Of a stretch of 64,000 nt of DNA, positions 2,579-30,802 are shown in pieces (position 1 is the first letter of the stretch; every line of letters starts with the position of its first letter). Location: positions 1 to 64,000 of the forward strand of contig NZ_BJDK01000016.1 of NCBI RefSeq assembly GCF_005405105.1. Direction: 5' to 3'. The notes below the pieces were generated by a model. The model did no database searches. It was given only the letters and a program-made list of their open reading frames with translations, and was not told where the DNA came from. The translations under genes were made by a program, and so were the position numbers. Origin of the DNA: Lactiplantibacillus dongliensis (GTDB lineage: Bacteria > Bacillota > Bacilli > Lactobacillales > Lactobacillaceae).

Positions 2579-3442
2579 TTACTTCTGATTTTCATTAATT
2601 TTTCCATTTTGCAAATCGGTCAAAATCTGCGCTGCCTGACTAGCTAGCTGATGCTCCTCATTATAGGCGGCGACGGCACTGGGGGCGTACTGATATGCTC
2701 CCGTTACTAAGGTTTGTTCGTAGAATGGTAAGTAGGGGAGCTGGTGATCACGAGCGATTCGAATCGCGGCTTGCCAGTCGAACGGGACTTGGCGATAACC
2801 AATATCTAGGAGGCCGTGATCGTCGAACGTCAATAGTAAATACATCGCGCGCTGTTGCCGGAGCTGCGGATGAACGGCGGTTGGTAGGCCGACCGTGCCC
2901 GCATTTAAAATTACCTGGCCATTAGTTGAGTAACGCATCAATGGTTGGTGTGTGTGCGCGTAAATCACGATATCCGGATCACCCGTAGCAGCCTGGTCAA
3001 AATTAACTTGGGCTTCAGTTGGCGCTAACGTATGTCCGCTGGCGAAGTTTGGCAAGACGTGTTGCAAGCGAATCTTTAGGCCGCCGACTTGTTTGGTCAC
3101 AGTGAGCGGGAGGTGGACTAATTGCTCAAAATGGGCGGTTGATAATTGGGCGCGGTCATAAGCCGTTAAAATCGTGGCCATAATTTGTTTCGGCTGGTTA
3201 AACGTAGCAGGGGTCGCAGTTAAAACTTTACGATAGTTCTGTTCATGATTGCCTAGCACGTAAGCGGTGGGGGCAACTTGATCCAGTAAGGTCATGCAGC
3301 GTTCAGCTTCCGGGCCGCGCACGGTAATATCGCCGACTGTCCAAAACTCGGTCGCCGCTTGTTGTTTGGCATCCGCTAGCACCGCAGCTAGGGCAGTGGC
3401 GTTGCCATGAATATCCGATAGTACGGCAATTTTATGTAACAT
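2579..3442 (-). CDS. Calcineurin-like metallophosphoesterase
   Basis: 287 aa, within the size range of YfcE/MJ0936-like phosphodiesterases. Metal ligands are visible in order: DIHGN near residue 10 (D-x-H), GDI near 38, GNHEQ near 65, the later AHTHQPLMR, and NAGTVGLP. This is the dinuclear metal centre of class-III phosphoesterases. A CGGAGG ribosome binding site lies before ATG 3442. The natural substrate is unknown. It probably has its own promoter in the gap shared with the aro leader, from which it diverges. Confidence 0.88.
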   Translation of the reverse strand: MLHKIAVLSDIHGNATALAAVLADAKQQAATEFWTVGDITVRGPEAERCMTLLDQVAPTAYVLGNHEQNYRKVLTATPATFNQPKQIMATILTAYDRAQLSTAHFEQLVHLPLTVTKQVGGLKIRLQHVLPNFASGHTLAPTEAQVNFDQAATGDPDIVIYAHTHQPLMRYSTNGQVILNAGTVGLPTAVHPQLRQQRAMYLLLTFDDHGLLDIGYRQVPFDWQAAIRIARDHQLPYLPFYEQTLVTGAYQYAPSAVAAYNEEHQLASQAAQILTDLQNGKINENQK

Positions 3443-3617
3443 GAGTGATAGCCTCCGTAAGTAAGATTAAAGTCTTTGATTCCCTTAATGGTTTCTTTGA
3501 GCTTTTGTTAACTGACTGTAACGCGGTTGCAATTGTGACGCAACTTGGTTCTGGTAAACTTGGTCATTGGAACGAAGTAAACTATCAGCACGTATATTCA
3601 AGCCAATTCGTTTCATG

Positions 3618-3652
3618 TCGCCGTAGTCGTACTGATTACGACGGCTTTTATT
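3618..3652 (+). terminator. Hairpin with T-rich tail upstream of the aro promoter
   Basis: GCCGTAGTCGT at about 3620 pairs with ACGACGGC (three bases bulged) and is followed by TTTTATTTTACTTTTTTT. It may isolate the aro promoter from upstream transcription. No gene was found feeding it on the + strand. Confidence 0.4.
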
Positions 3653-3694
3653 TTACTTTTTTTAATGATGAATAAAATTAAAATGAAATTAGTA

Positions 3695-3723
3695 TTGACA
3701 GTTATAAATGAGAATGTTTTAAT
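3695..3723 (+). promoter_or_regulatory. Promoter of the aromatic amino acid operon
   Basis: A consensus -35 TTGACA (3695-3700), a 17-bp spacer, and a -10 TTTAAT (3718-3723). Transcription would begin near 3730, about 28 nt before the leader peptide. Confidence 0.7.
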
Positions 3724-3757
3724 ATAAATATCAACTTAACGGAAAGGAAAGATAATT

Positions 3758-3814
3758 ATGACACAACTTTGGTCAACTAACGCGTATTATTATGGCTTTT
3801 ATTACTTTAGGTAG
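3758..3814 (+). CDS. Aromatic leader peptide of the aro attenuator
   Basis: 18 codons: MTQLWSTNAYYYGFYYFR then TAG. Eight of the eighteen residues are aromatic: one Trp, a run of three Tyr, then Phe-Tyr-Tyr-Phe. A strong ribosome binding site (GGAAAGGAAAG, 3741-3751) lies 6 nt before ATG 3758. It sits between a consensus promoter and a Rho-independent terminator preceding the aro genes. This is the design of a ribosome-stalling attenuator that senses charged tRNA-Tyr, tRNA-Phe and tRNA-Trp. The composition and RNA folds are seen directly. The regulatory role is inferred. Confidence 0.88.
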   Translation: MTQLWSTNAYYYGFYYFR

Positions 3815-3990
3815 CGTCCGCATTAGTTTCTTAGATGCGGGCGGTAAACACGCCCGTGTCTAAGGTGAGCAAAGTCATTTTTGTCTTTGACCAGCTAGAC
3901 ACGTGAAGGTCTAGCTGGGAATAAACGTCATTTATTCCTGCATGGTTTTTTAAGCCAGCTAGATTTTCTAAATCTAGCTGGCTTTTTTTA
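3815..3990 (+). promoter_or_regulatory. aro attenuator: relay of competing hairpins ending in a terminator
   Basis: Five helices can be drawn. A: 3815-3823 with 3835-3843. B: 3829-3843 with 3851-3865 (15 bp). C: 3891-3900 with 3909-3918 (10 bp). D: 3909-3918 with 3955-3964 (antiterminator, enclosing a small hairpin 3918-3925/3931-3938). E: 3952-3966 with 3970-3984, followed by seven T (terminator). A fits only if B is absent, C and D share a strand, and D and E share a strand. In addition 3855-3862, the 3' strand of B, matches 3896-3903 in the 5' strand of C perfectly (8 bp). A ribosome at the leader stop codon would mask A and favour B, then C, then E, giving termination. A ribosome stalled on Tyr or Trp would allow A, free the 3' strand of B to block C, and so favour D, giving readthrough. 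Confidence 0.8.
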
Positions 3991-4025
3991 TTCTAATTCG
4001 TTTTTAATTTTAAGGAGTGGTTAAC

Positions 4026-5504
4026 ATGCATAAGAGAGCATTATCGTTGAGTTTATACCTGAATTACTTTGTTCATGGGATTGGGTTAATTATTTTAACG
4101 CAAAACATGCAGGCCCTGAGTCAGCACTGGCAAACACCAATTGCCACCGTTTCTTACGTGGTTTCGGGGATTGGGATGGGGCGTTTGTTCGCTTATTTCC
4201 TATTCGGCAAATTGTCCGATCGTTATGGTCGTAAGTTATTTATTAATATTGGGATGCTGAGTTACTTAGTCTTCTTCTTAGGGATGGCAGTGGTCACCAA
4301 CATTCAAGTGGCTTATGCCTTAGCAATTCTAGCCGGCATTGCCAACTCGGCGTTAGATTCCGGAACGTACACGACCTTCATCGAAATGGGCGGTCGGCAA
4401 GGGTCCGCTAACGTGTTGATCAAAGCCTTCATGTCCGCTGGTGAATTCATCTTACCGTTATTGATTGCCAGCCTAGAAACAACGCGTCAGTGGTACGGCT
4501 GGTCCTTTATGTTAGCGGCCGTCGTTTTGATCGTCAATGTGGTCTTACTGAATCGGCAAAAGTTTCCAGTGCGTAATCAAGTCGATGCGAGCGCCCAAGC
4601 TGCGGGTCAACAATTATCCAAAGCCCGTCGCTGGTTAGCCAGTGCTAGCTTAGCTGGTTACGGCTACACGTCAATGGCTGTGATGATCTTATACACGCAA
4701 TGGATCAGCTTATTCGTGACCAGCGAGTTGAACTACTCGCGAGTATTGGCGCACTTACTATTATCGCTGTACAGTATCGGTTCGATTACTGGTGTGTTAG
4801 TCACCTTCTGGTTGTTGCATCGCGGGGCGGCGGAAAATAAAGTATTGCTGACGATGAACTTGAGCTCATTAGTCGCATTGCTGGTGGTGTGTTACACGAG
4901 TTGGCCGTGGTTATCGATCGTCGCATCATTCGTCTTTGGATTTACTGCCGCTGGGGGCATGATGCAAGTTGGATTGAACTTATTTATCCGGCTTTACCCT
5001 CAAGCTAAAGGAACCGTGACCGGCGTCTTCTTCACATTCGGCAGTATCGCGGCGTTCACAATTCCGTTGATTACCGGCTGGTTGTCGAAGCAAAGTATTG
5101 GTGCGGCGATGCGGTTTGACTTAGTGATTGGCTTAGCTGGCGTGGCTTTAGTGGCCTTGGCAGTCTGGGCATTAGGACCAACGAAATCCTTGGCTCACGA
5201 ACGTCAACACATTAATCAGATTGACCAACAAATCGTCCGGCTACTCAATCAGCGCTTTGATACGGTCACCACGATTGGCGACTTAAAACAAGCTGAACAA
5301 TTACCAGTCTTAGATCAGCAACGTGAAGATCGCGTTTTAGATCAAGTTGCACAAAAGAGTCAAACGGCTGCCCATACGCCATATTTACAAGCAATTTACC
5401 AAGCGATTATGTTAAATTCGCGGGCCTACCAAAGTGCGCGGCAAACGACGACGACCATGACGACTAGCACCACTCAGCATAAGGAGGAATTGACACATGA
5501 TTAA
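4026..5504 (+). CDS. MFS transporter fused to a C-terminal chorismate mutase (AroQ) domain
   Basis: 492 aa from ATG 4026; AAGGAG at 4012-4017 gives 8-nt spacing, so the GTG at 4017 inside that site is unlikely. Residues about 1-385 form a 12-helix major facilitator with the loop motif GKLSDRYGRK near residue 60. Residues about 395-470 are an AroQ-type chorismate mutase: the core IDQQIVRLLNQRF, then IGDLKQ and PVLDQQREDRVLDQV, then a third helix with LNSRAY, carrying the arginine, lysine and RE positions of the family. Chorismate mutase makes prephenate from chorismate in the cytosol. The gene is first in the aro operon, directly behind the attenuator, and overlaps aroC by 8 nt. The transported substrate is unknown. 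A shikimate-pathway or aromatic compound is a reasonable guess. Confidence 0.87.
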   Translation: MHKRALSLSLYLNYFVHGIGLIILTQNMQALSQHWQTPIATVSYVVSGIGMGRLFAYFLFGKLSDRYGRKLFINIGMLSYLVFFLGMAVVTNIQVAYALAILAGIANSALDSGTYTTFIEMGGRQGSANVLIKAFMSAGEFILPLLIASLETTRQWYGWSFMLAAVVLIVNVVLLNRQKFPVRNQVDASAQAAGQQLSKARRWLASASLAGYGYTSMAVMILYTQWISLFVTSELNYSRVLAHLLLSLYSIGSITGVLVTFWLLHRGAAENKVLLTMNLSSLVALLVVCYTSWPWLSIVASFVFGFTAAGGMMQVGLNLFIRLYPQAKGTVTGVFFTFGSIAAFTIPLITGWLSKQSIGAAMRFDLVIGLAGVALVALAVWALGPTKSLAHERQHINQIDQQIVRLLNQRFDTVTTIGDLKQAEQLPVLDQQREDRVLDQVAQKSQTAAHTPYLQAIYQAIMLNSRAYQSARQTTTTMTTSTTQHKEELTHD

Positions 5505-6666
5505 TTACGTGACGGCCGGTGAATCACATGGCCCCCAATTGACTGGCATTTTAACCGGCATTCCAGCCGGATTAACCCTAGATATCGCGGCTATCAATGC
5601 CGGCTTAGCTGCGCGGCAAGGTGGCTTTGGCCGCGGTAATCGGCAACAGATCGAGCACGATACGGTCACCGTTACTGGTGGCTTGCGGCATGGCGTGACT
5701 CTGGGCTCACCGATTGCGTTAACCATTCAAAATCGCGATCATGCACATTGGCACGCGATTATGAACCCAACTAGTCCCGCAACCGCAGATAACACTTTGC
5801 GGCAAGTGACTCGGCCCCGACCTGGTCATGCGGATCTCGTTGGCGGCATGAAGTACGGTCACCGTGATTTACGCAATGTTTTAGAACGGTCATCTGCTCG
5901 TGAAACGGCGATGCGGGTGGCGATTGGTCAGATTTGTAAGCAATTATTAGCGCAACTCGGCATCGACTTAGTCGGCTATGTGCAACAGATTGGTCAAATT
6001 CAAGTTGATTCCCAAGCGAGCTTGTCAGTCGCTGAATTGACCCAAGCCATTGCCCAAAATGATCTACGGATTACCGATAATGCGCAAGTGGCTGATATTC
6101 ATGACCTCATTACGGCCACTAAAAAAGCTGGTGATACGCTAGGTGGCGTGATTCGCGTCGTTGCCACCAATGTCCCCGCGGGCTTAGGCAGTTACACCAA
6201 CTGGGATACGAAGTTGGATGGGCAATTGGCTGCCGCTGTGATGGGCGTCAATGCGATGAAGGGCGTTGAGATTGGCGATGGCTTTGCGGCGGCCGCCAGT
6301 TACGGCAGTCAAGTGATGGATGAGATCGATTGGGACGCTGAAAACGGGTGGTCCCGGTTGACGAATCATCTGGGCGGCTTTGAAGGTGGGATGACCAATG
6401 GGATGCCCATCATTATTAAGGCGGCGATGAAGCCAATCCCGACCCTCTACAAACCGTTACAAAGTGTTGATATTCAGACAAAGGCGATTCAAAAGGCTAG
6501 TGTTGAACGCTCAGATACGACCGCCATCGTGCCCGCGTCAATCGTTGTCGAAAGCGTGGTGGCGATTGAACTGGCGCGCGCCATTACAGCAACCTTTGAT
6601 GGCAGTAAGTTGAGTCGGTTACAGGCGATGGTACAAGCTTACCGCGCTGAATTACAAGCGTACTAG
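5497..6666 (+). CDS. aroC: Chorismate synthase
   Basis: 389 aa, full length. It converts EPSP to chorismate using reduced FMN. Family signatures are visible: GESHGPQLTGILTGIPAGL near the N-terminus, RPRPGHADLVGGMKYGHRDLRN, the RSSARETAMRVAIGQ signature near residue 130, and the late SDTTAIVPASIVVESVV segment. The ribosome binding site AAGGAGG (5481-5487) lies inside the end of the preceding gene, so translation is probably coupled. In Bacillus naming this gene is aroF. Confidence 0.97.
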   Translation: MINYVTAGESHGPQLTGILTGIPAGLTLDIAAINAGLAARQGGFGRGNRQQIEHDTVTVTGGLRHGVTLGSPIALTIQNRDHAHWHAIMNPTSPATADNTLRQVTRPRPGHADLVGGMKYGHRDLRNVLERSSARETAMRVAIGQICKQLLAQLGIDLVGYVQQIGQIQVDSQASLSVAELTQAIAQNDLRITDNAQVADIHDLITATKKAGDTLGGVIRVVATNVPAGLGSYTNWDTKLDGQLAAAVMGVNAMKGVEIGDGFAAAASYGSQVMDEIDWDAENGWSRLTNHLGGFEGGMTNGMPIIIKAAMKPIPTLYKPLQSVDIQTKAIQKASVERSDTTAIVPASIVVESVVAIELARAITATFDGSKLSRLQAMVQAYRAELQAY

Positions 6667-6669
6667 CCA

Positions 6670-7209
6670 ATGCGGATGCATACGTTAGGTCCTGCCGCCA
6701 CTGATAGCTATGCGGCGGCGCAAACTTATAATCAGTTGCCTCAGGTGACACCAATGACCATTGTTGGCCACCCGAGCTTTGAAGCGATCTTGACCCATTT
6801 GGAACGTTACAGTGGCGACTACTTGCTGCTACCGGCCGCGTTTAAGTCGCCGGCGTTACAGGCAAGTTGGGGAGATGTCCACTATGCGTTACTTGATAAG
6901 ATGACGTTGACGCGTTGCTTCATGACCCAATTGAACCCGTTAGTGGTCGTACAACGGTTGGATGCGGATAATCGCATCGGCTATACGCATGCCGCGACGG
7001 CCCAACTCTTACAACGGATTGTCAGTCATGTCGACGTGCAAACGGCGCCAAGTAAGGTGGCGGCTTATCAACTTTATCAAACCAATCAAGCCGGCTACGT
7101 TTTAACGAATGAAAAAAATGTCACACTAACGGCCAATGAACGGGTAGTTAAACGCTTAACTCCCGCGATGGTCTGGTGTTTATATCATATTAAGGATGAC
7201 GATGAATGA
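6670..7209 (+). CDS. Prephenate dehydratase-like protein lacking the catalytic TRF motif
   Basis: 179 aa. The N-terminus LGPAATDSYAAAQ resembles the LGP-x-G-T-x-S-x-x-A opening of prephenate dehydratases. The pattern FEAILTHLERYSGDYLLLP followed later by IGYTHAATAQLLQRI follows the dehydratase fold order. However, the C-terminal Thr-Arg-Phe catalytic triplet is not at the expected place (the region reads PAMVWCLYHI) and no ACT domain follows. It could be a divergent dehydratase, a BacA-type prephenate decarboxylase relative, or a regulatory subunit. It starts 3 nt after aroC and overlaps aroA by 4 nt, so it is certainly part of the operon. No clear ribosome binding site is seen; coupling is likely. 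Confidence 0.6.
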   Translation: MRMHTLGPAATDSYAAAQTYNQLPQVTPMTIVGHPSFEAILTHLERYSGDYLLLPAAFKSPALQASWGDVHYALLDKMTLTRCFMTQLNPLVVVQRLDADNRIGYTHAATAQLLQRIVSHVDVQTAPSKVAAYQLYQTNQAGYVLTNEKNVTLTANERVVKRLTPAMVWCLYHIKDDDE

Positions 7210-8513
7210 AAAAATTAAGCAGTCAACCCGCTAATGGCCTTCATGGGACATTGACGGTTCCAGGCGACAAAAGTATTTCCCACCGTGGCCTGATCTTGGG
7301 TGCGATTAGCCAAGGGACGACCACGTTAACCAACTTTTTACCCGCGGACGATTGTCTGTCAACGTTAGGCGCTATGCGAGCGCTTGGCGTGCAAATTAAC
7401 CGGGAGTCAACGACCGTGCAGATTACTGGTCGCGGGATTCACGGCTTGACGGCGCCCAAGCAAGCGTTAGATATGGGGAATGCAGGTACAGCGACGCGCT
7501 TACTAGCAGGTTTGCTGGCTGGGCAACCGTTTGACAGCACGCTTGTTGGCGATGACTCGCTTAGTCAGCGGCCGATGGAACGGGTCCGGCAGCCACTAGC
7601 CACAATGGGTGCCAAATTAGCACTAGTTAACGGTCATTTACCAATGACGATTCACGGCCAGCACCTACACGCCGCTAATTACCAAATGACAGTTGCCAGT
7701 GCCCAAGTCAAAAGTGCGTTAATCTTGGCGGCGCTGCAAGCCGATCAGCCAAGTACGATTATTGAAAAATTACCGACGCGTGATCATACCGAGCGCTTAC
7801 TGCAAGCCTTTGGTGGCGAGATTGCGACGGCCGCGGATGGCAAGACGATTACGGTTCAGCCGCAACCGAATTTGCGGGGACAAAATGTGACCGTGCCGGG
7901 GGACTTATCGTCAGCCGCTTTCTTCTTAACGGCGGCTAGTATCGTACCCGGTTCACGCGTGCGATTGCATAATGTTGGTCTAAATCCCACACGAACTGGA
8001 TTATTAACGGTGTTACAACGCATGGGTGGGGATGTCACAATTACGCCGACTGCTAGTACGGGTGAACCCTTCGGTGATGTGACGGTAGCCGCGACTGAGT
8101 TACAGCCGCTTGACTTAACGGCCGCCGATATTCCAGCGGTAATCGATGAATTACCGTTGGTGGCACTATTGGCAGCAACCGCCAATGGGGTGAGTCGGAT
8201 TAGCGGTGCTGGTGAATTGCGGGTCAAGGAAACGGATCGCATTGCGACGATTGTGACGGAATTGCGTAAGTTGGGGGTGGCGATTGAAGAACGGCCCGAT
8301 GGTTTCGTGATTGATGGGCGGCGGGCTTGGCAGGTGCAAACGTCGCAATTAGACAGCCATGGCGATCACCGCATTGGGATGATGATGGCCATTGCAGCGT
8401 TGCGGCTGAAGACACCGTTAACTTTGGCAAATGCCGCTGCCATTAGCATTTCGTACCCGAACTTCTTCCATGATCTACAACAATTATTACCGTCAACGGA
8501 GGTGTTGGTATGA
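7206..8513 (+). CDS. aroA: 3-phosphoshikimate 1-carboxyvinyltransferase (EPSP synthase)
   Basis: 435 aa. It condenses shikimate-3-phosphate with PEP. Motifs: PGDKSISHRGLILGA near residue 20 (substrate-binding Lys-Ser), GNAGTATRLLAGLLAG near 91 (PEP site), RDHTERLL, and the late SHGDHRIGMMMAIAAL signature. The start overlaps the stop of the upstream gene (ATGA), and the end overlaps tyrA by 4 nt, indicating tight translational coupling. Called aroE in Bacillus nomenclature. Confidence 0.97.
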   Translation: MKKLSSQPANGLHGTLTVPGDKSISHRGLILGAISQGTTTLTNFLPADDCLSTLGAMRALGVQINRESTTVQITGRGIHGLTAPKQALDMGNAGTATRLLAGLLAGQPFDSTLVGDDSLSQRPMERVRQPLATMGAKLALVNGHLPMTIHGQHLHAANYQMTVASAQVKSALILAALQADQPSTIIEKLPTRDHTERLLQAFGGEIATAADGKTITVQPQPNLRGQNVTVPGDLSSAAFFLTAASIVPGSRVRLHNVGLNPTRTGLLTVLQRMGGDVTITPTASTGEPFGDVTVAATELQPLDLTAADIPAVIDELPLVALLAATANGVSRISGAGELRVKETDRIATIVTELRKLGVAIEERPDGFVIDGRRAWQVQTSQLDSHGDHRIGMMMAIAALRLKTPLTLANAAAISISYPNFFHDLQQLLPSTEVLV

Positions 8514-9607
8514 TGCAAGTACTGATTAAAGGGCTCGGCCTGATTGGCAGTTCGCTGGCCTTAGCGATTCGCCAAGCGCATCCAGACGTCACGATTGTGG
8601 GCAGTGACGTGGTGCCAGCAACACTTGACTATGCGCAACAAAGTCAGCTCGTTGATGACGTGACAACTGATTTCTCAACTGCAGCGGTGACGGCTGATGT
8701 GATTATTCTAGCTGGACCAGTGGCTGTGATTTGTGATGACTTAGCGACTTTAGCGACCTTGTCGTTAAAACCACAAGTGGTGATCACTGATGTCGGCAGT
8801 ACGAAGCAGACCGTCTTAGCCGCCGCGCGACCGTTACAACAACGGGGGTTAGCCTTTGTGGGTGGGCATCCAATGGCTGGCTCGCATAAGTCGGGCGTGA
8901 TGGCGGGCCGCGCGGATTTATTTGAAAATGCATACTACTTCTTAGTTCCCGGTTTGGCGCCTAAAGCCGCCGTCCAGCAGTTGCAAGCTTTATTAGTGGG
9001 CACACATGTTAAATGGCTCACGGTGACGCCGAAACAACATGATCGCTTAGTCGGTCAACTCAGTCATTTGCCACATGTGGTGGCCGCGGCGTTAGTGAAT
9101 CAAACGCAACAGGCGTTGGCTGATTCACCGCTAGGGCTACGGTTAGCGGCGGGGGGCTTTAAAAGCATTACCCGAATCGCCTCAGCTGATCCGACCATGT
9201 GGCAGTCGATTTTATTGAACAACGGGCAAGTCGTAACCAGCCAATTACAGGCTTATATTGACCAATTAGCTGCCATTAAAGCCGCGATTGAACAGCAAGA
9301 TGCGCCTCAAATTAATGCGTTTTTCGCTGCCGCCAAGACGACTCGTGATCATTTAGGTCCGGAACATCTGGGCAGTCTACCTAACTTCTTTGATTTATTT
9401 TTAAATATTCCGGATCAGACCGGTGCGATTGCTGATGTGACCCAACGCTTGGCTGCCGCAGGGTTAAGTTTAGTGAATATTCATATTTTAGAGATTCGAG
9501 AAGAAGTCGATGGTGTCTTACAAGTTACGTTTGGTGATGCCGCTACGCGTGATCAAGCGGCGTCGGTATTACAACAAGCAGATTATCAGATTGTGAGGAG
9601 AAATTAA
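8510..9607 (+). CDS. tyrA: Prephenate dehydrogenase with C-terminal ACT domain
   Basis: 365 aa. It oxidises prephenate to 4-hydroxyphenylpyruvate, the tyrosine branch. The Rossmann motif IKGLGLIGSSLALAIR is at the N-terminus. The catalytic His region GGHPMAGSHKSG and the segment GQLSHLPHVVAAAL follow. Residues about 295-360 (LNIPDQTGAIADVTQRLAAA and the following strand) form an ACT domain, which normally carries feedback inhibition by tyrosine. It starts by a 4-nt overlap with aroA and ends 1 nt before aroK. Confidence 0.95.
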   Translation: MMQVLIKGLGLIGSSLALAIRQAHPDVTIVGSDVVPATLDYAQQSQLVDDVTTDFSTAAVTADVIILAGPVAVICDDLATLATLSLKPQVVITDVGSTKQTVLAAARPLQQRGLAFVGGHPMAGSHKSGVMAGRADLFENAYYFLVPGLAPKAAVQQLQALLVGTHVKWLTVTPKQHDRLVGQLSHLPHVVAAALVNQTQQALADSPLGLRLAAGGFKSITRIASADPTMWQSILLNNGQVVTSQLQAYIDQLAAIKAAIEQQDAPQINAFFAAAKTTRDHLGPEHLGSLPNFFDLFLNIPDQTGAIADVTQRLAAAGLSLVNIHILEIREEVDGVLQVTFGDAATRDQAASVLQQADYQIVRRN

Positions 9608-9608
9608 T

Positions 9609-10133
9609 ATGGAAGCAATTTTAATTGGATTTATGGGTAGTGGCAAAACTACGGTCGGTCGGCTATTGGCGGATCAACTTACCACGCAGCATGCCGACTT
9701 GGATGACATGATTGTTGAACGGGCCGGTCAAGCGATTACGGCGATTTTTGAGCAGCATGGGGAAGGGTACTTCCGGCAGTTGGAACAACAAACCTTGCGT
9801 GGCGCTTTAGCGCAACCCGGCGTCCTTTCAACGGGTGGGGGGACGCCGACGATTCCGGCTAATGCGGCAATTTTGACAGCTAGTCCGGTGCCCGTGATTT
9901 GTTTAGCGGCGGACGACACCACGATTCTTGACCGTGTCGCCCATGATACTAGTCGGCCGTTGGTTAATGACCTAGACACGGCGGCTTTATTAGCGTTAAA
10001 GCACCAGCGCGCACCTTTATACGAAGCCGCGGCGGACTTGGTGATTCAAACCGATCAATTAGCGCCAACTGAAATTGTGGCCACGATTCAAGACTGGTTA
10101 AGTCAGCCTGCCCGCCGGAGCGCTCAAGCTTAA
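9609..10133 (+). CDS. aroK: Shikimate kinase
   Basis: 174 aa, usual length. It phosphorylates shikimate at the 3-hydroxyl with ATP. Walker A is GFMGSGKTTVGR (residues about 7-18). The shikimate-binding Asp is in HADLDDMI, and STGGGTPTI is the GGG motif near residue 75. The lid Arg lies in HDTSRPL. It is the last gene of the aro operon, with ribosome binding site GAGGAG before ATG 9609. aroB, aroD and a shikimate dehydrogenase are not in this window. Confidence 0.96.
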   Translation: MEAILIGFMGSGKTTVGRLLADQLTTQHADLDDMIVERAGQAITAIFEQHGEGYFRQLEQQTLRGALAQPGVLSTGGGTPTIPANAAILTASPVPVICLAADDTTILDRVAHDTSRPLVNDLDTAALLALKHQRAPLYEAAADLVIQTDQLAPTEIVATIQDWLSQPARRSAQA

Positions 10134-28007: not shown

Positions 28008-28253
28008 CAATAACTTTGCGACTCTGACAAGGACTAGTAGTCGCTGCTGCTTTTCAGAAACTCCGTGGTCGTTGCAAACGGGGATGCAGTGGTGGCGAAC
28101 TCACCTTCGAGTCTTCCGGCTGAAGTCAGTTGTAGGTACGGACGTGGTTTCGCGTTAAGAAAACTCAAGAGGCCACGCTAGTCGTGGAATCATAGGTGGT
28201 ACCGCGGAACCTCGTTTCGTCCTATAAGCGCTTTTTGCTTATAGGATTTTTTT
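28008..28253 (+). promoter_or_regulatory. Leucine T-box leader of leuS
   Basis: The T-box sequence AGGTGGTACCGCGG lies at 28194-28207. The specifier loop shows GAACTCACC, giving the Leu codon CTC at the place expected in Stem I. The distal stem region GACAAGGACTAG begins near 28026. The leader ends with terminator CCTATAAGC/GCTTATAGG plus seven T (28221-28252). Uncharged tRNA-Leu (GAG) would stabilise the antiterminator. Confidence 0.94.
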
Positions 28254-28378: not shown

Positions 28379-30802
28379 ATGGCATACAACCATAAAGTCA
28401 TTGAACGTAAATGGCAACATTATTGGAAGGTTAATAAGACCTTCAAGGCACAAGACACAACCGATAAACCTAAGTACTATGCATTGGATATGTTCCCTTA
28501 TCCATCTGGTCAAGGGCTACACGTTGGGCATCCAGAAGGTTACACCGCCACGGATATTATGTCGCGGATGAAGCGGATGCAAGGGTTTAACGTCTTACAT
28601 CCAATGGGGTGGGACGCTTTTGGCTTGCCAGCTGAACAATATGCTTTAAAGACGGGTCATAACCCGAAAGACTTTACGGCTAAAAATATCAAGAACTTTA
28701 AACGCCAAATCCGGTCATTGGGCTTTTCATATGACTGGGATCGCGAAGTTAATACGACTGATCCTAGTTATTACAAATGGACCCAATGGATCTTCGAACA
28801 ATTATACAAGCGCGGTTTAGCGTATGAATCTGAAACGTTGGTTAACTGGGCCCCTGATATGATGGGTGGGACTGTGGTTTCTAACGAAGAAGTGGTTGAT
28901 GGTAAGACGGAACGCGGTGGTTATCCAGTTTACCGGGTCCCAATGAAGCAATGGAGTCTTAAGATTACCGCTTATGCTGACCGTTTAATCGATGATTTGG
29001 ATGATATCGATTGGCCAGAAAGCATTAAAGAACAACAACGTAACTGGATTGGTCGTTCAGTGGGGGCTTCGATTCGCTTCAACATTGAAAACCATCCTGA
29101 TCAACAGATCGAAGTCTTTTCAACCCGTCCAGATACCTTGTATGGTGCTAGTTACATGGTCTTAGCCCCTGAACTAGACTTGGTCAATGAGGTCACGACA
29201 CCTGAACAAGCTGAAGCGGTTAAAGCTTATAAAGCGAAGATTGCCAGCAAGTCTGACTTGGAACGGACTGACTTAAACAAGGATAAGACCGGGGTCTTCA
29301 CTGGGAGTTACGCGATTAACCCAATTAATGGCGAAAAATTACCAATCTGGATCGCCGATTATGTCTTAGCATCATACGGGACTGGGGAAGTCATGGGTGT
29401 GCCGGCTCATGATGACCGCGATTTCGAATTTGCCCAAAAGTTTGGTCTCGATATCAAGCCTGTCATTGCTGGTGAAAATGATTATAGCAAGCAAGCTTAC
29501 ACCGAAGATGGCGAACATATTAACTCTGAATTGGTTAATGGGTTAACAAAACAACCGGCTATCGATAAAATGATCGACTGGTTAGTTGAACACGATGCCG
29601 GTGAAAAGAAAGTCAACTTCCGCTTACGGGATTGGATCTTCTCACGGCAACGTTATTGGGGCGAACCAATCCCAGTGATCCATTGGGAAGATGGCGAAAC
29701 CACGTTGGTACCGGAAGATGAATTACCACTCCGTTTACCAGCCACGAAGAACCTTGAACCTTCTGGGACTGGTGAAAGTCCGTTAGCTAATATCGATGAT
29801 TGGGTCAACGTTGTCGATAAAAACGGCCGTAAAGGGAAACGTGAAACGAACACGATGCCACAATGGGCCGGGAGTTCATGGTACTTCTTGCGTTACGTTG
29901 ATCCACACAATGCCGAAGCTTTAGCTGACTATGATAAGTTGAAGTACTGGTCACCAGTTGATTTATACGTGGGTGGCGCAGAACATGCCGTCTTACATTT
30001 ATTGTATGCCCGTTTCTGGCACAAGTTCTTGTATGACCTCGGCGTAGTGCCATTTAAGGAACCATTCCAGAAGTTAGTCAACCAAGGGATGATCTTGGGC
30101 GATAACCATGAAAAAATGTCCAAGTCCCGTGGCAACGTGGTCAACCCTGACGATATCGTGGAACAATACGGAGCCGATACGTTGCGGCTATACGAAATGT
30201 TCATGGGGCCATTGGAAGCTTCAATTCCATGGAGTACGGAAGGTTTGCACGGCGCTAACAAGTGGATCGAACGGGTTTGGCGATTGATTATTGATGAAAA
30301 TAATCACGTGCGCGATCGGGTGACGACCTTTAACGATGGTAAGTTGACGAAAGTCTATAACCAAACTGTTAAAAAGGTTACTGAAGATTACGAAGCGATG
30401 CGCTTTAACATTGCCATCTCACAGATGATGGTCTTTGTTAACGAAGCGTACAAAGTTGATGATTTACCAATCGTCTACATTGAAGGCTTAGTGAAGTTAT
30501 TGGCGCCAATTACGCCACACTTATCAGAAGAACTCTGGTCATTACTTGGTCATGAAAAGACGATTACGTATGCTACTTGGCCAACTTATGATGAATCTAA
30601 GTTGGTTGAAAGTACGGTCCAGATTGTCTTACAAGTTAACGGTAAAGTCCGGTCACATGCCGAAGTTGCTAAAGACATGGGTAAAGACGAACTTGAAAAG
30701 TTAGCCTTGGCCGACGAAAAAGTTAAAGAATTTACTGACGGGAAGACGATTCGCAAAGTCATCGCTATTCCTGGCAAATTAGTGAACATTGTCGCTAACT
30801 AA
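28379..30802 (+). CDS. leuS: Leucyl-tRNA synthetase
   Basis: 807 aa, full length for bacterial LeuRS. The class I HIGH motif is [17 protein letters not shown] (residues about 40-56), the KMSKS motif is [12 protein letters not shown] near residue 578, and the CP1 editing region has the segment [13 protein letters not shown]. The anticodon-binding region is C-terminal. It is preceded by its own T-box and closed by a terminator, so it is autonomously regulated by leucine starvation. Confidence 0.98.

Follow-up and report, generated by a model that had tools for sequence, protein, structure and literature searches.

The leader of the aro operon in Lactiplantibacillus dongliensis, found within a stretch of 64,000 nucleotides (hereafter the window), is probably a ribosome-mediated transcription attenuator built of seven alternately pairing strands plus a lock helix, Z, a reading to which we give a probability of roughly three in four. 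From the sequence we infer which state arises when, the positions of the ribosome and the readthrough, as follows. The strands would pair either as 1:2, 3:4 and 5:6 or as 2:3, 4:5 and 6:7. When Tyr or Phe is scarce, a ribosome stalled on the aromatic codons would cover the 5' strand of Z and leave strand 1 free, allowing helix A (1:2) to form and strand 3 to capture strand 4 in helix X; strand 5 would then pair with strand 6 as the antiterminator D, and RNA polymerase would enter the operon. When Tyr and Phe are plentiful, a ribosome at the UAG stop codon would mask strand 1, with B (2:3), then C (4:5) and finally the terminator E (6:7) taking shape. If the leader is untranslated or the ribosome has gone, Z would form and X, a would-be pseudoknot, would not, with C and E following. 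The codons would set the specificity, and relatives in which they have been exchanged would govern other amino acid genes.

We further lean towards the view that the element stands for a class of codon-programmable attenuators, not described before, that spans the order Lactobacillales together with Sporolactobacillus. Such a class would share one inherited RNA architecture, with ribosome position read at the Z codons and at strand 1, a seven-strand chain, and the choice between Z and pseudoknot X as an off-lock, reprogrammed among Tyr, Phe, Trp, Ile and Leu/Ile/Val as a translated counterpart of the T-box. If this is true, lactic acid bacteria including Lactiplantibacillus plantarum own such a counterpart for aromatic and branched-chain genes, and codon identity would predict the substrates of transporters (Trp, Tyr/Phe, Phe, Ile). 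The mutual exclusion of Z and X, like the two-point ribosome sensor, also yields sharp predictions, open to mutation, on how a decision could be relayed across about 170 nt of RNA.

Layout of the leader in the window

The features of the leader are collected in Table 1. An 18-codon leader peptide, helices A to E and a hairpin in the spacer between strands 5 and 6 had been described in an earlier note on this DNA, and all of them were recovered at the same positions; the complementarity X, which that note called perfect, is so. What it missed is the conserved helix Z, the putative source of an untranslated state. The window leader contains a short ORF, preceded by GGAAAGGAAAG and with many codons for the amino acids under control, whose translation is predicted. 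An intrinsic terminator (3952-3984), with which the antiterminator is mutually exclusive, precedes the first structural gene of the aro operon.

Table 1. Positions of the promoter, leader ORF, pairing strands, helices and controlled genes in the window
Feature	Position	Strand	Remarks
Sigma-70 promoter TTGACA-17-TTTAAT	3695..3723	+	no other exact match across the window (expected number 0.01)
Leader ribosome-binding site CGGAAAGGAAAG	3740..3751	+	read in the sequence
Leader peptide ORF MTQLWSTNAYYYGFYYFR	3758..3814	+	18 codons; ATG 3758-3760, TAG 3812-3814
Z 5' strand ATGGCTTT	3792..3799	+	inside Tyr12-Gly13-Phe14 codons; partner 3871-3878
Strand 1 (5' side of A)	3815..3823	+	begins directly after the stop codon
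Strand 2 (5' side of B; 3' side of A at 3835-3843)	3829..3843	+	
Strand 3 (3' side of B; 5' side of X at 3855-3862)	3851..3865	+	
Z 3' strand AAAGTCAT	3871..3878	+	between strands 3 and 4
Strand 4	3891..3903	+	3' side of X at 3896-3903; 5' side of C at 3891-3900
Strand 5 (3' side of C; 5' side of antiterminator D)	3909..3918	+	
Spacer hairpin within D loop	3918..3938	+	3918-3925/3931-3938, 8/8 pairs
Strand 6	3952..3966	+	3' side of D at 3955-3963; 5' side of terminator E
Strand 7 (3' side of terminator E)	3970..3984	+	T-run after
Helix A	3815-3823/3835-3843		9 pairs, including one G-U
Helix B	3829-3843/3851-3865		15 pairs, including three G-U
Helix Z	3792-3799/3871-3878		8 pairs, including one G-U; regulatory codons form the 5' side
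Helix X	3855-3862/3896-3903		8/8 Watson-Crick
Helix C	3891-3900/3909-3918		10/10 pairs
Antiterminator D	3910-3918/3955-3963		9/9 pairs
Terminator E	3952-3966/3970-3984		15 pairs, T-run next
First gene under control, an MFS transporter-chorismate mutase fusion	4026..5504	+	MFS_1 1.2e-31, CM_2 4e-19
Remaining aro operon: aroC, pheA-like gene (6670-7209), aroA, tyrA, aroK	5497..10133	+	

These signals recur among related leaders. A promoter match of at least 9/12 lies upstream of 180/182 leaders, against 95/182 when single bases were shuffled; a loosely defined motif resembling a ribosome-binding site precedes 151/182, the start being misframed in eight of these; and a hairpin-plus-T-run finder reported a terminator in 182/184. 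The gene at 6670-7209 gave no NCBIfam or Pfam match and is called pheA-like by eye, from its likeness to relatives, one of which (L126) has a PDT match of 24.2 bits, just below the Pfam cut-off of 25.2. Elsewhere in the window, nine consecutive tRNA genes occupy 4-844, and a T-box at 28015-28227 stands ahead of an 807-aa ORF (28379-30802) that we take to be leucyl-tRNA synthetase.

Conservation, specificity and distribution

The strands and their complementarities are conserved among relatives. In the swap test, the pairing strength of a leader's own strands was compared with that of strands exchanged between the leaders of different species, the strands being taken from 184 leaders (182 with a terminator, 181 distinct); L232 and L267, which have no terminator, were left out of the swap tests and of folding, and a second match in L267 was dropped. 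Own strands outperformed swapped ones in 171 (A), 175 (B), 164 (X), 178 (C), 162 (D), 177 (E) and 153 (Z) of the 181 distinct leaders, and in 74, 74, 68, 78, 68, 75 and 67, respectively, of 78 dissimilar leaders (one per similarity group). Five controls made of non-adjacent strands paired better with their own partners in 69-99/181, one of them (1:z3) deviating towards worse own pairing at p 0.02, where, as throughout, p-values overstate because the leaders are kin; in the dissimilar leaders, three non-adjacent controls displayed no own-strand advantage (27-46/78). Since B, C and Z were part of the covariance models used for searching, which tilts their counts in their favour, and E was picked as a hairpin, the fair tests are A, X and D, whose pairing entered none of the models.

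Covariation was assessed in 91 Lactobacillaceae leaders. Helix A is paired in 94.1% of cells, compared with 22-49% when slid, and 8/9 of its pairs change on both sides, a level reached by 0/500 shuffles. For X the paired share is 91.7% of cells versus 16-54% when slid by 1-3 columns; the helix has 75 double-change cells versus 25.3 in shuffles, and exceeds shuffles on three of five covariation measures, while its double-change pairs (4) were equalled by 45/500 shuffles and its pair types (11) by 89/500. Since 47/91 leaders lack the outermost pair (3855/3903), the conserved core of X comprises 7 pairs. Z is paired in 92.4% of cells; its 99 double-change cells compare with 22.4 for shuffled data (a comparison in which Z belongs to the model), and the number of its double-change pairs is unremarkable, being reached by 299/500 shuffles. 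Direct reading supplies extreme examples of Z, namely TATAGCAACTA with TAGTTGCTATA in L127 and ACTTTAGTCA with TGATTAAAGT in L126. Because Z encloses strand 3 and not strand 4, X formed alongside it would be a pseudoknot, which makes Z and X mutually exclusive by topology. In an untranslated leader, Z could act to switch the gene off.

Taken with the swap tests, this conservation agrees with the earlier proposal of a leader-peptide attenuator that would relay its decision through A or B, X or C, and D or E; X and the aromatic codons, whose absence from relatives had been named as speaking against that proposal, are clearly conserved. The hairpin said to stack within the antiterminator holds as a general tendency, spacers between strands 5 and 6 forming more stable folds than their shuffled versions (mean z −0.93, n=180), but not as a conserved sequence, which varies among leaders. 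Two further candidates were dropped as weak: a second local hairpin between the Z 3' strand and strand 4 (mean z −0.31), and a helix between the leader tail and strand 3, where own pairing is slightly better in 110/172.

Synonymous codons are constrained where they overlap the RNA structure. Codon and stop counts refer to 174 leaders, without L063, L079, L071, L222, L159, L180, L161 and L257, whose ORFs were misframed, and without L113 and L114, whose ORFs were missed. Gly at −6 is encoded by GGC in 40/42 leaders (background 25%) and Ser at −4 by AGC in 59/62 (background 13%), which indicates selection on the RNA beyond the peptide alone; Phe at −2 is TTT in 134/134, and Arg at −1 is AGA or AGG in 115/116. 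The regulatory residues lie mainly at −9 to −2 before the stop, and the final codon is seldom one of them (Y, F, W, I, L or V at −2 in 93%, at −3 in 89% and at −1 in 9% of 184 leaders), a placement that fits a stalled ribosome having to cover Z yet spare strand 1. TAG is the stop codon in 148/174 leaders versus 36/159 downstream genes, and the commonest leader tail is TTTAGATAG (61/174); the excess of TAG may reflect slow release that keeps strand 1 covered, or a constraint on the RNA.

The identity of the codons follows the gene. The aromatic core of the leader peptide is conserved among relatives, and Tyr/Phe leaders stand ahead of aromatic genes. Ile/Leu/Val leaders precede branched-chain amino acid genes in 13/13 cases and other leaders do so in 0/171, gene classes having been assigned by clustering all 184 downstream proteins with profile searches on representatives only. 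The 13 come from 10 genomes of a single family (f5) and govern ilvA (2), ilvE (2), ilvB (2) and a Liv transporter (7); the leader of one ilvE gene (L155), with Phe at −9, is counted as Ile. The pheA-like genes have Phe-only leaders in 6/6, such leaders also precede 17 TrpX-type transporters, and the sole canonical pheA (L148) has a leader with Tyr besides Phe codons. Two Trp leaders (core NSWQNWRR, both from genus g57) precede TrpX-type SBPs (2/2); the one SBP tested behind a Trp leader scored 478 bits (cut-off 390), compared with 296 and 332 bits for one SBP each behind a Phe leader and a Tyr/Phe leader. The earlier note had counted Trp among the residues sensed in the window. However, W is present in just 2 of the 17 same-genus leaders (L001-L017), namely the window's own and L002, and is not conserved; Trp is therefore unlikely to be sensed here, and the window leader most likely senses Tyr/Phe.

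The leaders MYFSYFR and VYFSYFR (L154, L262, L272) stand ahead of a DASS-family transporter, the family being assigned for L154 only; their codons suggest a link of this transporter to aromatic amino acids. In L223, the Phe leader VFFNSNFR precedes a 2-hydroxyacid dehydrogenase of the D-lactate-dehydrogenase type, perhaps a phenyllactate enzyme.

Sequence search alone gave matches in 30/100 relatives and 13/63 genera, several of them short and not leaders; covariance models were used because it reached only part of the other genera. At E 0.01, model R1 (22 leaders) found the element in 204/397 genomes and 27/40 genera of the family, in 89/246 genomes of the order and in 18/250 of the class. 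Model R2 (96 leaders), built on alignment A4 with a stricter cut-off than A3 (two reverse-strand matches, E 0.03-0.046), found it in 255/395 genomes and 63/80 genera of the order. In a phylum-wide sample, R2 matched 4/299 genomes at E 0.001: the genome of the window itself, two more of the order, and one, in G1043 (L208), taken as a false positive, as it has no leader ORF and apparently lies inside a gene. Among matches in the window's own genome at E 0.02 or worse, L211, L213 and L214 proved unlike leaders on inspection, and L212 is the window's own terminator read on the opposite strand. The same genome carries a second copy (L210, G000:C47:3648-3801), whose leader MSLPLNQKTQTSFYFWYFR has the core SFYFWYFR and which precedes a PLP-dependent aminotransferase gene. 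The aromatic attenuator that had been thought uncommon is hence widespread, and Ile/Leu/Val leaders belong to it as well.

That the order is Lactobacillales follows from named relatives. In a scan of named genomes for relatives of the MFS-chorismate mutase gene, of which the best 80 of 142 places were kept, the R2 element was found at 72, directly upstream of that gene in 64 and about 1.7-1.8 kb further upstream in 8; R2 gave no match at the remaining places (L315, L316, L325, L342, L344, L347, L348 and L352). Carriers include Lactiplantibacillus plantarum (L276), Lentilactobacillus, Levilactobacillus, Liquorilactobacillus, Fructobacillus and Sporolactobacillus, and we only infer that group g43 is Streptococcus. 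Relatives of the MFS-chorismate mutase fusion itself occur in many Lactobacillaceae and in Sporolactobacillus. Three genomes (L070/L071, L073/L074, L075/L076) have the transporter and chorismate mutase-aroC as separate units, each with its own leader, 6.5-8.4 kb apart.

Folding calculations and rival explanations

Folding was calculated at equilibrium for the part of each transcript that lies 3' of the ribosome edge, which was assumed to be at A-site +12 nt, a helix being counted as formed above 4 expected pairs, in 172 of the 184 leaders and in 74 dissimilar ones, without the eight misframed leaders; in the set of 172, stalls were placed 5-8 codons ahead of the stop. With strand 4 just made, X was present in 14 of the 74 dissimilar leaders without a ribosome, 64-68 with a stalled one and 33 with one at the stop (37, 149-159 and 67 of the 172). 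Z fell from 44 without a ribosome to 0-2 under stall (91 and 0-2 of the 172, with 0 at the stop). A formed in 56-61 of the 74 under stall (of the 172, 101 without a ribosome, 137-144 under stall and 0 at the stop). The proposal that completion of the peptide at the stop codon would favour B was borne out by these calculations in 71 of the 74 (of the 172, 72 without a ribosome, 28-33 under stall and 169 at the stop). Once strand 5 was made, C appeared in 60-65 of the 74 under stall and 73 at the stop, leaving X in 15-22 under stall (C in 133-150 and 171, and X in 32-51, of the 172). With strand 6 made, D was found in 34-45 of the 74 under stall, 25 at the stop and 6 without a ribosome (91-109, 66 and 31 of the 172).

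In the window's own leader, a stall at strand 4 gives A and X, and a ribosome at the stop, or none, gives B; folded without a ribosome, the leader adopts B and no Z. The earlier idea that A excludes B does not hold for A by itself, as under stall before strand 4 the two are nearly equal (−26.4 and −26.5 kcal/mol for A and B); with strand 4 made, A+X at −39.1 kcal/mol beats B at −35.2. The sequence of A, X and D that starvation was said to bring about is reproduced for A and X at strand 4, whereas C mostly returns at strand 5. B+C is the calculated minimum at strand 6 at nearly every stall tried and at strand 5 at all three tried there, although at strand 6 the penalty for forcing A+X is small (−60.0 versus −61.4 kcal/mol). 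At strand 4 the calculations agree, though not cleanly, with three states: A-X-D on starvation, B-C-E on completion and Z-C-E in the absence of translation. Equilibrium folding thus supports the switch up to strand 4 and mostly goes back to C at strand 5 under stall. Since B+C is the minimum at later lengths, the antiterminated state would need to be held kinetically, and on these calculations antitermination must draw on kinetics, on pausing by RNA polymerase or on something unseen.

These results can be read in other ways. In one, which we consider unlikely, the choice between Z and X is the main switch and A/B merely tunes its timing. A stall removes Z and raises X from 14 to 64-68 of the 74 leaders at strand 4, and X persists in 33/74 with the ribosome at the stop, both as this reading would have it; yet A covaries strongly, and in the window strand 1 starts directly after the stop codon, a position that sensing through A/B needs and Z does not. 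Nascent-peptide arrest, known from TnaC, which responds to a free amino acid, would have the peptide itself (aromatic run, Arg, UAG) stall the ribosome on the free amino acid while the RNA reads the arrest. The peptide is conserved, and with the prevalent TAG stop (148/174) and common tail (61/174) release may be slow. But the residues follow the gene, Tyr/Phe giving way to Ile, Leu or Trp, the constraint on synonymous codons points to the RNA, and the tail has a slight preference for pairing with its own strand 3 (110/172), and we regard arrest as very improbable.

It is also quite improbable that C, D and E suffice as a plain four-strand attenuator, with A, B, X and Z as bystanders or as RNA polymerase pause elements. 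The set of C, D and E does resemble classical attenuators, the ilv leaders of Staphylococcus aureus (PMC5794164) and Listeria (PMC5864092) are described with simple alternatives in the excerpts of those papers, and for the majority of leaders folding at strand 5 reverts to C despite the stall. However, A, X and Z prefer their own partners over swapped ones much as C does. Moreover, the stop codon in the window lies 76 nt ahead of strand 4, so that without A, B and X nothing would tie the ribosome to the terminator. Least credible, and in our view hardly tenable, is that an RNA-binding protein or a direct ligand, in the manner of TRAP, a T-box or a riboswitch, works the hairpins while the ORF is incidental. 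T-boxes are, by partial accounts in the literature, common on amino acid genes of Firmicutes, and the window holds one at 28015-28227. Nevertheless, codon identity follows the gene, and no Rfam family reached its gathering score over the leader in the window and 20 relatives. The best sub-threshold match at the leader was L20_leader (22.3 bits versus a cut-off of 58.7, E 0.046), the T-box family RF00230 had no match at 3600-4100, and the lone Rfam match in the 20 relatives, Srn266 in L142, covers 2909-3016, outside the leader (1501-1645). The ribosome-mediated relay with lock helix Z remains our preferred reading.

Comparison with known systems

Among the matches listed in a search of open-licence PMC literature, covering titles and the beginnings of abstracts, no description of this element was recognised. 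Leader-peptide attenuation of Firmicute amino acid genes is, as far as the excerpts of the respective papers go, described for the ilv-leu operon in Listeria, where the Rli60 attenuator is drawn with four segments (PMC5864092), and in S. aureus, where the ilvD attenuator is confined to branched-chain amino acids and predicted attenuators in Lactococcus and Streptococcus are cited (PMC5794164). Both share this principle with our leader; they differ in that they are branched-chain only, with no relay in the descriptions excerpted, whereas here there is a relay with several specificities. His leader peptides of Firmicutes, reported in the available portions to replace T-boxes at Bacillus hisS/hisZ (PMC2965389) and his operons (PMC9413887), are similar in kind and differ in serving histidine only; the latter source, in the same portion, assigns its new His attenuators to the B. 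cereus group, Eubacteriales and Erysipelotrichales and names T-boxes as the commonest control in Lactobacillales. A candidate Phe-sensing uORF ahead of a terminator and aroF, uORFC-13-1 (PMC8632094), comes close too. Its excerpted account gives 24 sequences, from Acholeplasma and environmental sources only, with one further base-paired substructure, and specificity switching is absent from that account, unlike here, where codons are exchanged.

Ribosome-mediated attenuation itself is classical; what appears new here is a probable relay attenuator of Lactobacillales. The his operon attenuator of E. coli and Salmonella combines hungry codons with a multi-hairpin relay, and a hairpin overlapping the codons terminates transcription when there is no translation. 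The present leader resembles it in its leader peptide with hungry codons and its alternating hairpin relay to terminator or antiterminator, the chain of alternately pairing strands spanning the codons to the terminator. It differs in having seven strands plus Z, in that completion would be sensed by masking of the strand directly after the stop, in that Z would block the relay topologically, without sharing strands, and in its occurrence in lactic bacteria as a single RNA family that serves several amino acids. T-boxes, which are untranslated, bind tRNA directly. Like them, the element sets one architecture, re-programmed by codon, on the amino acid genes of Firmicutes; in contrast to them, the ribosome would here read an ORF, whose translation is predicted.
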